Positions 29,179-31,468 of a stretch of DNA of 64,000 bases are shown one piece after another. The DNA comes from Acidimicrobiales bacterium (GTDB taxonomy: Bacteria > Actinomycetota > Acidimicrobiia > Acidimicrobiales > Aldehydirespiratoraceae): NCBI GenBank assembly GCA_022425325.1, contig JAKMFW010000093.1, positions 1 to 64,000 on the forward strand, given 5' to 3'. A model generated the notes under the pieces. That model ran no database searches. It was given only the letters and a program-made list of their open reading frames with translations, and was not told the DNA's origin. How positions within the stretch are numbered: position 1 is the first letter of the stretch; the number at the start of each line of letters is the position of its first letter. The translations under genes were made by a program, and so were the position numbers.

Positions 29179-29254
29179 GTGGCGCTGACCGTAACCAGGC
29201 CCCCTGACGGTGTGGGGGGATGCCCCCCTGTGGAAATCCGGGCATGCTGGAGGC

Positions 29255-29491
29255 ATGGCTCGACTCCGCTTGTTCGCCTCCGCCCGTGAAGCTGCCGGCA
29301 CGGCCAAGGCCGACTTCGCCGGCGCCACCGTCGGCGAGGTGCTCGATGCTGCGGTGGCCGAGTTCGGCGAGGAATTCGCAGGCGTGCTCGGTACCTGCAA
29401 TGTGTGGGTCAACGGTGATCAGGCCGACCGGGATGACGCTGTGGGCGAGGGCGACGAGGTCGCCGTCCTCCCCCCGGTCTCGGGCGGCTGA
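29255..29491 (+). CDS. MoaD/ThiS-like sulfur-carrier protein
   Basis: This 78-residue beta-grasp protein starts MARLRLFASAREAAG and ends in VAVLPPVSGG. The C-terminal Gly-Gly is the site where MoaD/ThiS proteins are adenylated and thiocarboxylated. The first strand and helix match MoaD. No molybdopterin genes adjoin it, so its acceptor enzyme is unknown. GGAGG sits almost against ATG 29255. Confidence 0.82.
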   Translation: MARLRLFASAREAAGTAKADFAGATVGEVLDAAVAEFGEEFAGVLGTCNVWVNGDQADRDDAVGEGDEVAVLPPVSGG

Positions 29492-29515: not shown

Positions 29516-30043
29516 GTGATTCGCGACCTGCAGCGCGTCCTTGAGCCGTCCTATGTGGGTGGTCTCGCCGACGCCCCGATCGAGCAGATTCGGGCGATGC
29601 GTGCCGAGTGCACCGAACTCGAGAACGGGGCGTCCTTCGTTCGGCGGCTCGCTCAGGGCCGCCTCGACCTGCTCGGCGAGGAAGCAACGCGACGGGCCGA
29701 CGGCGCCGGCGGCAACCTCGGAGAACTCGTCAGCGGCCTCGCCGACCTGATGAGTGAGAGCGTGCGCGCAGCTGGCTCGGGCCGCCTCGATCAGGAACTC
29801 GATCCCCCGGAGGCCGTCGTCGGCCCGCTCACCGCAGTTCTCGACGCCAGGGTTGGCCCGTCGGTGATCATGGCAGTAGCGGAGTTGGACGACGACGAAC
29901 TCTCGGCGGCGCGGCAGGCGCTCCAGGATTTCGAGGAAGAACTCTCCAGTACTCGCCGCAGCCTTCATCGTGCAATCGATGTGCTCAATGCCGAACTCGC
30001 CCGTCGCATCGCGTTGGGCGAGTCGTCTGCGTCCCCGAGCTGA
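29516..30043 (+). CDS. RsiG-like c-di-GMP-binding anti-sigma factor
   Basis: This 175-residue, mostly helical protein carries two copies of the RsiG c-di-GMP motif E-x3-S-x2-R-x3-Q-x3-D. Copy 1 is exact: Glu36, Ser40, Arg43, Gln47, Asp51. Copy 2 has Glu140, Ser144, Arg147, His151 (for Gln) and Asp155. In Streptomyces, RsiG bound to c-di-GMP sequesters the sigma factor WhiG (FliA family). The two motif helices with a linker of about 80 residues match the two-motif monomeric form. No sigma factor is in the window. The likely transcript is leaderless. It lies 64 bp upstream of mshA. Confidence 0.8.
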   Translation: MIRDLQRVLEPSYVGGLADAPIEQIRAMRAECTELENGASFVRRLAQGRLDLLGEEATRRADGAGGNLGELVSGLADLMSESVRAAGSGRLDQELDPPEAVVGPLTAVLDARVGPSVIMAVAELDDDELSAARQALQDFEEELSSTRRSLHRAIDVLNAELARRIALGESSASPS

Positions 30044-30106
30044 GTTCGTTTCGTAGGAACCGATCGTGAAGGAATGCATGAGCGTCGTGGTCAGTTGGAG
30101 CATGCG

Positions 30107-31318
30107 GTGACCCGTCTCGCAATGCTGTCGTTGCACACGTCACCGCTCGTCCAGCCGGGCGGCGGTGACGCCGGTGGCATGAACGTCTATGTGCGCGAGC
30201 TCGTGGCCGCGCTCGCCCATGGCGGAGCCGACACCACGGTCTATGTCCGTCGGTGGCGAGATGATCTGCCGAAACGTCTGGCGGTCGAGCCGGGCTTCGA
30301 GGTCGTGCACATCGACGCCGGCGACCCCAACCTCTCGAAGGAGCAGCTGCCCGGTATCGTCGACGAGTTCGCTGACGGGGTGCGCGCCCATCTCGCCATC
30401 GATCCGGCCGATGTGCTGCACGCCAACTACTGGTTGAGCGGGGTGGCTGGTCATCGGCTCAAGCACGAGCTCGATCTGCCGATGGTGTCGACGTTCCACA
30501 CCCTCGCCCGCGTGAAGGCCGAGACAGGTGACGTCGAGCCGCAGAACCGCATCGATGCCGAGTCCGACGTCATTGCGTGCAGCGACATCATCACGGCGAA
30601 CTCCGTGGTCGAGTTGCACGAACTCGTGCGTCATTACGGCGCTGATCCGAGCCGCATCGAGATCGTGCCGCCTGGCGTCGACCACGCCTTCTTCTCACCT
30701 GGTTCCCGCCGCGGTGCTCGTCAGGCGCTCGGCCTCGGCGATGAACCCGTGCTGCTCTTCGTCGGCCGCATCCAGCCGTTGAAGGGTGTCGATGTCGCCG
30801 TAGAGGCGTTGTCGCAGCTGCGTGATCCCCGGGCCCGCATGCTGATCGTCGGGGGCTCGAGCGGGATCGAGGGCGATGATCATGCCGCCGAGGTTCACGA
30901 TCTCATCACCGATCGAGGTCTCGACGATCGCATCACGATGGTGCCGCCTCAGCCCCACCATGTGCTCTCCACCTATTACCGGGCGGCCGACGTCACGATC
31001 GTGCCGAGCCGCTCGGAGTCGTTCGGTCTCGTCGCGCTGGAGTCCGCAGCGTGCGGCACACCGGTCGTCGCTTCCGACGTGGGTGGCTTGCGCACGCTGG
31101 TCGATCATGGCCGCACCGGCCTTCGGGTGCCGGGCCGCGATCCGGATGACTTCGCCGAGGCGGTCGAGCGCATCATCGGCGATCCGATCTTCGCCGGGCG
31201 ACTGTCCGAGCGGGCTGCCGAGGCGGCAACGGCCTACACCTGGACCTCGATGGCGGCTCGCCTGCGGCGGGTGTACGCCGACCTGAGCGAACGCGTCCCT
31301 GTCGATTGCATGGCCTGA
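30107..31318 (+). CDS. mshA: MshA-like glycosyltransferase (mycothiol synthesis)
   Basis: This 403-residue GT4 enzyme contains LSLHTSPLVQPGGGDAGGMNVYVREL, the MshA N-terminal signature, plus GRIQPLKG and ESFGLVALESAACGTPVV of the donor-binding GT-B domain. MshA transfers GlcNAc from UDP-GlcNAc to inositol-3-phosphate, the first mycothiol step, and pairs functionally with the mshC-like gene at position 1. GTG 30107 has GGAG at 6 nt; ATG 30074 is an alternative in-frame start. The stop codon lies inside the first unit of the 31-bp tandem repeat. Confidence 0.85.
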   Translation: MTRLAMLSLHTSPLVQPGGGDAGGMNVYVRELVAALAHGGADTTVYVRRWRDDLPKRLAVEPGFEVVHIDAGDPNLSKEQLPGIVDEFADGVRAHLAIDPADVLHANYWLSGVAGHRLKHELDLPMVSTFHTLARVKAETGDVEPQNRIDAESDVIACSDIITANSVVELHELVRHYGADPSRIEIVPPGVDHAFFSPGSRRGARQALGLGDEPVLLFVGRIQPLKGVDVAVEALSQLRDPRARMLIVGGSSGIEGDDHAAEVHDLITDRGLDDRITMVPPQPHHVLSTYYRAADVTIVPSRSESFGLVALESAACGTPVVASDVGGLRTLVDHGRTGLRVPGRDPDDFAEAVERIIGDPIFAGRLSERAAEAATAYTWTSMAARLRRVYADLSERVPVDCMA

Positions 31319-31468
31319 CCGCCTGCGGTCGGGAAGTGTTGGGGCCTGACCGCCTGCGGTCGGGAAGTGTTGGGGCCTGACCGCCTGCGGTCGGGAAGTG
31401 TTGGGGCCTGACTGCCTGCGGTCGGGAAGTGTTGGGGCCTGACCGCCTGCGGTCGGGGAGTGTTGGCC
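31314..31468 (+). repeat. five tandem copies of a 31-bp repeat with an internal palindrome
   Basis: Units start at 31314, 31345, 31376, 31407 and 31438, with exact 31-bp spacing. Each contains the palindrome GACCGC-CT-GCGGTC and the tail GGGAAGTGTTGGGG. Units 1-3 are nearly identical, unit 4 has one C-to-T change in the palindrome and unit 5 diverges in the tail. The mshA stop codon (31316-31318) is part of unit 1. Each palindrome could form a 6-bp hairpin with a 2-nt loop. Confidence 0.95.

Follow-up and report, generated by a model that had tools for sequence, protein, structure and literature searches.

The open reading frame at the centre of this study is a twin-motif RsiG, an ordinary and well-supported member of its family. 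It lies in the window, the whole stretch of 64,000 nucleotides of Acidimicrobiales DNA that was analysed. Taking sequence, structural model and analogy with characterized relatives together, we regard it as highly probable that this RsiG, when loaded with c-di-GMP, holds the WhiG sigma factor encoded on contig C46 of the same genome off RNA polymerase. Our computational analyses show its identity as an RsiG, its likely partner and its joint inheritance with WhiG. The frame is present in the sequence, with GTG at 29516 and a stop codon ending at 30043, and its features are as follows.

29516..30043, + strand: rsiG, encoding the twin-motif RsiG (175 aa, GTG start, stop included; PF22802, PDB match, predicted fold)
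29579..29698, + strand: first coiled-coil helix, predicted residues 22-61 (AlphaFold2 model)
29621..29668, + strand: c-di-GMP motif 1 (putative site), residues 36-51, ENGASFVRRLAQGRLD (sequence)
29699..29890, + strand: linker with a low-confidence loop, residues 62-125 (model confidence; pLDDT <50 at 81-94)
29891..30013, + strand: second coiled-coil helix, predicted residues 126-166 (AlphaFold2 model)
29933..29980, + strand: c-di-GMP motif 2 (putative site), residues 140-155, EEELSSTRRSLHRAID, with His at the base-stacking position (sequence)

The first-pass annotation had proposed an RsiG from the motifs, and the profile search bears out this identification. The Pfam RsiG family PF22802 matched the protein in two stretches, with E = 4.6e-25 and 87.5 bits (cut-off 27), and FlgM had no entry among its Pfam matches. 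The top sequence match in the PDB was the S. venezuelae RsiG (6pfj/6pfv; E = 9.3e-12, residues 22-171), while the single-motif RsiGs 7lq2, 7lq3 and 7lq4 gave weak matches within residues 17-83. An RsiG of the single-motif, homodimer type was ruled out by the two motifs within one chain. An AlphaFold2 model was built from 26 sequences, with a mean pLDDT of 84.1, and the sole Foldseek matches to it at E <= 0.001 were the four RsiG chains of 6pfv/6pfj. Alignment of the model by VIA-align gave Z = 14.4 over 157 residues for 6pfv_B, compared with 8.0 for the next unrelated entry. The protein is predicted to adopt the antiparallel coiled-coil fold of the RsiG crystal structures. In S. venezuelae RsiG a loop shields c-di-GMP (PMC8325347), and the linker loop of the present protein would correspond to it by position.

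The sequence confirms both motifs as originally read. Motif 1, E36-x3-S40-x2-R43-x3-Q47-x3-D51, is exact, and motif 2, E140-x3-S144-x2-R147-x3-H151-x3-D155, carries His for Gln. When the RsiG sequence was shuffled 200,000 times with its composition preserved, one exact motif arose in 0.04% of the shuffles and two in none; given these rates and the PF22802 match, the motif pair is not a product of chance. The two helices are identical at 11 of 35 residues in register, which is similar to the helix-to-helix identity of 33% in S. venezuelae RsiG (PMC8325347).

The conservation that the annotation had presumed among orthologues was found when 81 proteins, almost all of them class members, were aligned. 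Neither Ser nor Arg changes in either motif (S40, R43, S144 and R147, each 81/81). Only one relative departs from E or D at the motif glutamates, with E36 present in 75/81 and E140 in 78/81. D51 of motif 1 is kept in 68/81. The stacking position of motif 1 is Q in 65 relatives, H in 15 and E in 1, and that of motif 2 is H in 60, F in 11, Q in 8 and L in 2. The Gln-to-His swap at motif 2 is thus normal, His being the commonest residue there in the group. The 2021 paper described a Gln/His swap for motif 1 (PMC8325347), whereas in these 81 relatives His is carried mainly by motif 2. Phe occupies the motif-2 stacking position in L012, L020, L022, L024, L028, L029, L102, L107 and L109, and may be able to stack too; it is not mentioned where PMC8325347 describes the motif.

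The nearest named relatives, EAC9 and NAT108, which we compared in a four-sequence alignment, are 93-94% identical at the protein level and keep both motifs. The named relatives are metagenome-assembled Acidimicrobiaceae/Acidimicrobiales, in agreement with the Acidimicrobiia-like lineage assigned at first. Moreover, rsiG is under purifying selection, with dN/dS of 0.13-0.23 against five relatives. These observations bear on the proposal that the protein is an RsiG-like helical protein that kept the family fold and lost ligand or sigma binding. Such a loss would fit the scarcity of GGDEF proteins in the host genome and a sister genome that is already without a functional RsiG-WhiG pair, but it is extremely improbable in the face of purifying selection, intact motifs in EAC9 and NAT108, and ten motif residues that are all of accepted kinds.

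The reading that we prefer remains that of a c-di-GMP-dependent anti-sigma factor, and crystal structures of the relatives suggest how it would work. RsiG is expected to be a monomer, its two long helices being predicted to form an antiparallel coiled coil. The E-x3-S-x2-R-x3-[Q/H]-x3-D motif pair would be presented to an intercalated c-di-GMP dimer, and the loaded RsiG would clamp WhiG and keep the sigma off RNA polymerase. A fall in c-di-GMP would then free WhiG, and its regulon would be transcribed.

The host genome (2.6 Mb, 102 contigs, 95% complete) encodes two sigma factors above the FliA_WhiG cut-off, on contigs C46 and C27, so that the FliA/WhiG sigma foreseen by the annotation is present. 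With a score of 347.9, the C46 sigma lies above the WhiG equivalog cut-off of 343. It matches S. venezuelae WhiG with an E of 9e-89 and retains the Lys, Gly and Arg equivalent to K57, G61 and R62, the WhiG residues that contact c-di-GMP (PMC8325347). Its locus reads dprA, xerC, whiG, M23 peptidase and rpsB, where the peptidase and rpsB were assigned by Pfam and the other three read from translations. Judged by these sequence features, the C46 WhiG is the likely partner of RsiG. Another possibility would be that RsiG regulates the C27 sigma instead of, or besides, WhiG. This sigma exceeds the FliA_WhiG cut-off with 197.8 bits, and it is also missing from the sister genome in which rsiG is broken. 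However, it scores 179.4 on the WhiG equivalog model, below the cut-off, and Phe and Gln stand in place of G61 and R62, so that two of the three contact residues are missing and its candidacy is disfavoured. Furthermore, 11 of the 14 class genomes with the weaker-scoring kind of sigma alone are without RsiG. We therefore consider the C27 sigma an improbable target and retain the C46 WhiG as the likely partner.

Neither of the two observations that the first-pass annotation had named as contrary to its reading, a genome without a FliA/WhiG sigma and motif residues that vary among orthologues, was made, because the WhiG partner is present and the motif residues are conserved.

RsiG and WhiG are inherited together. 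In our survey of 296 genomes of the class, RsiG was present in 183, and a FliA/WhiG sigma below 1e-40 in 199. With canonical WhiG taken as a best match of about 1e-69 or better, a threshold set after the values were seen, 175 genomes have both genes, 103 have neither, 8 have RsiG only and 10 have WhiG only. The co-occurrence gives a Fisher p = 3e-57, which is nominal because the genomes are related. Several of the 18 discordant genomes are incomplete assemblies.

A genome of the same genus (G205) has lost both genes. Its rsiG is a pseudogene that has lost 95 bp, reaching into motif 1, and a further 5 bp, and has gained a +1 insertion; the surroundings are 91-93% identical. On one contig, a deletion of ~2.4 kb removes whiG and most of the M23 peptidase gene. 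The joint-loss loci are L178 (contig C43 of G205) and L180 (contig C8). This is a recent joint loss, seen in one draft genome where an assembly error is possible, although such an error is less probable since the lesions are several and lie at two loci. As G205 is also without the C27-type sigma, joint loss within the genus is not enough to point to WhiG alone. In another genus of the family, three genomes have no RsiG, no FliA/WhiG match and no GGDEF. The host species retains the switch and its congener (G205) lost it recently; this pair of genomes offers a natural test of its role.

With respect to the ligand, our search for c-di-GMP enzymes covered GGDEF proteins and found two matches in the host genome. 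One is a GGDEF-EAL protein on C95, with both signatures intact; it is a candidate source of c-di-GMP and the sole intact GGDEF protein found there. An H-NOX (HNOB) gene overlaps the start of its gene (L174:3284-5232), an arrangement that hints at a possible NO/O2 input to the switch. The second match (L175:3100-4101, contig C67) is degenerate, with QDGRFG replacing GGDEF. In S. venezuelae, the GGDEF-EAL protein RmdB is reported to bind WhiG and to displace RsiG from it (PMC13232838, 2026). Elsewhere in the class, 20 of the 183 genomes with RsiG, the host not among them, are without a strong GGDEF match, so the c-di-GMP ligand is not guaranteed everywhere. These 20 genomes have RsiG, usually plus WhiG, and weak GGDEF matches of about 1e-11 to 1e-15; 16 of them belong to one family, f34 (e.g. 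G013, G042, G066 and G148). The four f34 RsiGs that we read keep both motifs. If it holds up, the presence of RsiG and WhiG without a strong diguanylate cyclase match would question the ligand in those genomes.

The output of the switch is probably not flagella. FlhA (PF00771), present in 48 of the 296 class genomes, is absent from the host genome at 95% completeness, and flagellar output was rejected on this ground. Nor did promoters point to motility: the flagellar (FliA/WhiG) consensus TAAA-N15-GCCGATAA, with <=2 mismatches, was found 23 times in the genome against 25 in the control, and upstream regions, taken from the window and from seven further stretches of the genome, fitted it no better than control. 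The suggestion that motility was the likely output is therefore unsupported. Exact consensus matches across the 296 genomes were scattered, and a clear common target was not found among them. As consensus promoters were not enriched, the regulon could not be named. The host genome has two loci with pilus-type ATPases, one of which holds TadE and T2SSF genes. It is conceivable, if rather doubtful, that the H-NOX/GGDEF-EAL pair feeds the switch, so that NO or O2 would set WhiG activity and drive a non-flagellar, non-sporulation output such as a Tad-type pilus or surface programme.

The immediate neighbours of rsiG are as follows.

29210..29491, + strand: MoaD/ThiS-type gene, directly upstream of rsiG (PF02597, E 1.7e-14)
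30074..31318, + strand: MshA-like glycosyltransferase gene, directly downstream of rsiG (TIGR03449, 377.7 bits; equivalog cut-off of 462.5 not reached)

Many class genomes share the gene order phosphatase, MoaD/ThiS, rsiG and MshA-like glycosyltransferase. Translations from several relatives show a gene for a helix-turn-helix regulator just 3' of rsiG. At L027:1456-2370 the RsiG frame is without a stop and runs into this regulator, by fusion or sequencing error; in its relatives the same regulator is a separate downstream gene. In the window, a 31-bp unit is repeated five times in tandem, with 97% matches, at the end of the mshA-like gene (31312-31466), and each copy contains the inverted repeat GACCGC-CT-GCGGTC. 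The non-coding RNAs found in the window were two tRNAs, with none besides.

To conclude, we describe a further, well-supported instance of the RsiG-WhiG switch, from an uncultured Acidimicrobiales bacterium. It does not bear newly on the origin of the switch, as had been claimed for the two-motif form, because twin-motif RsiG was already reported in 3 of 4 Acidimicrobiales species in 2021 (PNAS; PMC8325347); those proteins share the lineage and the architecture described here, and the present one comes from another species. The single-motif RsiGs of Rubrobacter and Thermoleophilia (7lq2, 7lq3, 7lq4) have one motif and act as homodimers (PMC8325347). They share the motif and a WhiG partner and match weakly in sequence, whereas both motifs lie within one chain here. 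Another close counterpart is S. venezuelae RsiG (6pfj, 6pfv; deposited as AmfC). It differs in having Gln rather than His at the motif-2 stacking position, and in its host, the present one being an uncultured Acidimicrobiales bacterium for which a sporulation role is not established. On the other hand, the two proteins are similar in length, match over residues 22-171 and have the same predicted fold, with two motifs on two antiparallel coiled-coil helices, and both hosts encode a WhiG with the same c-di-GMP contact residues.
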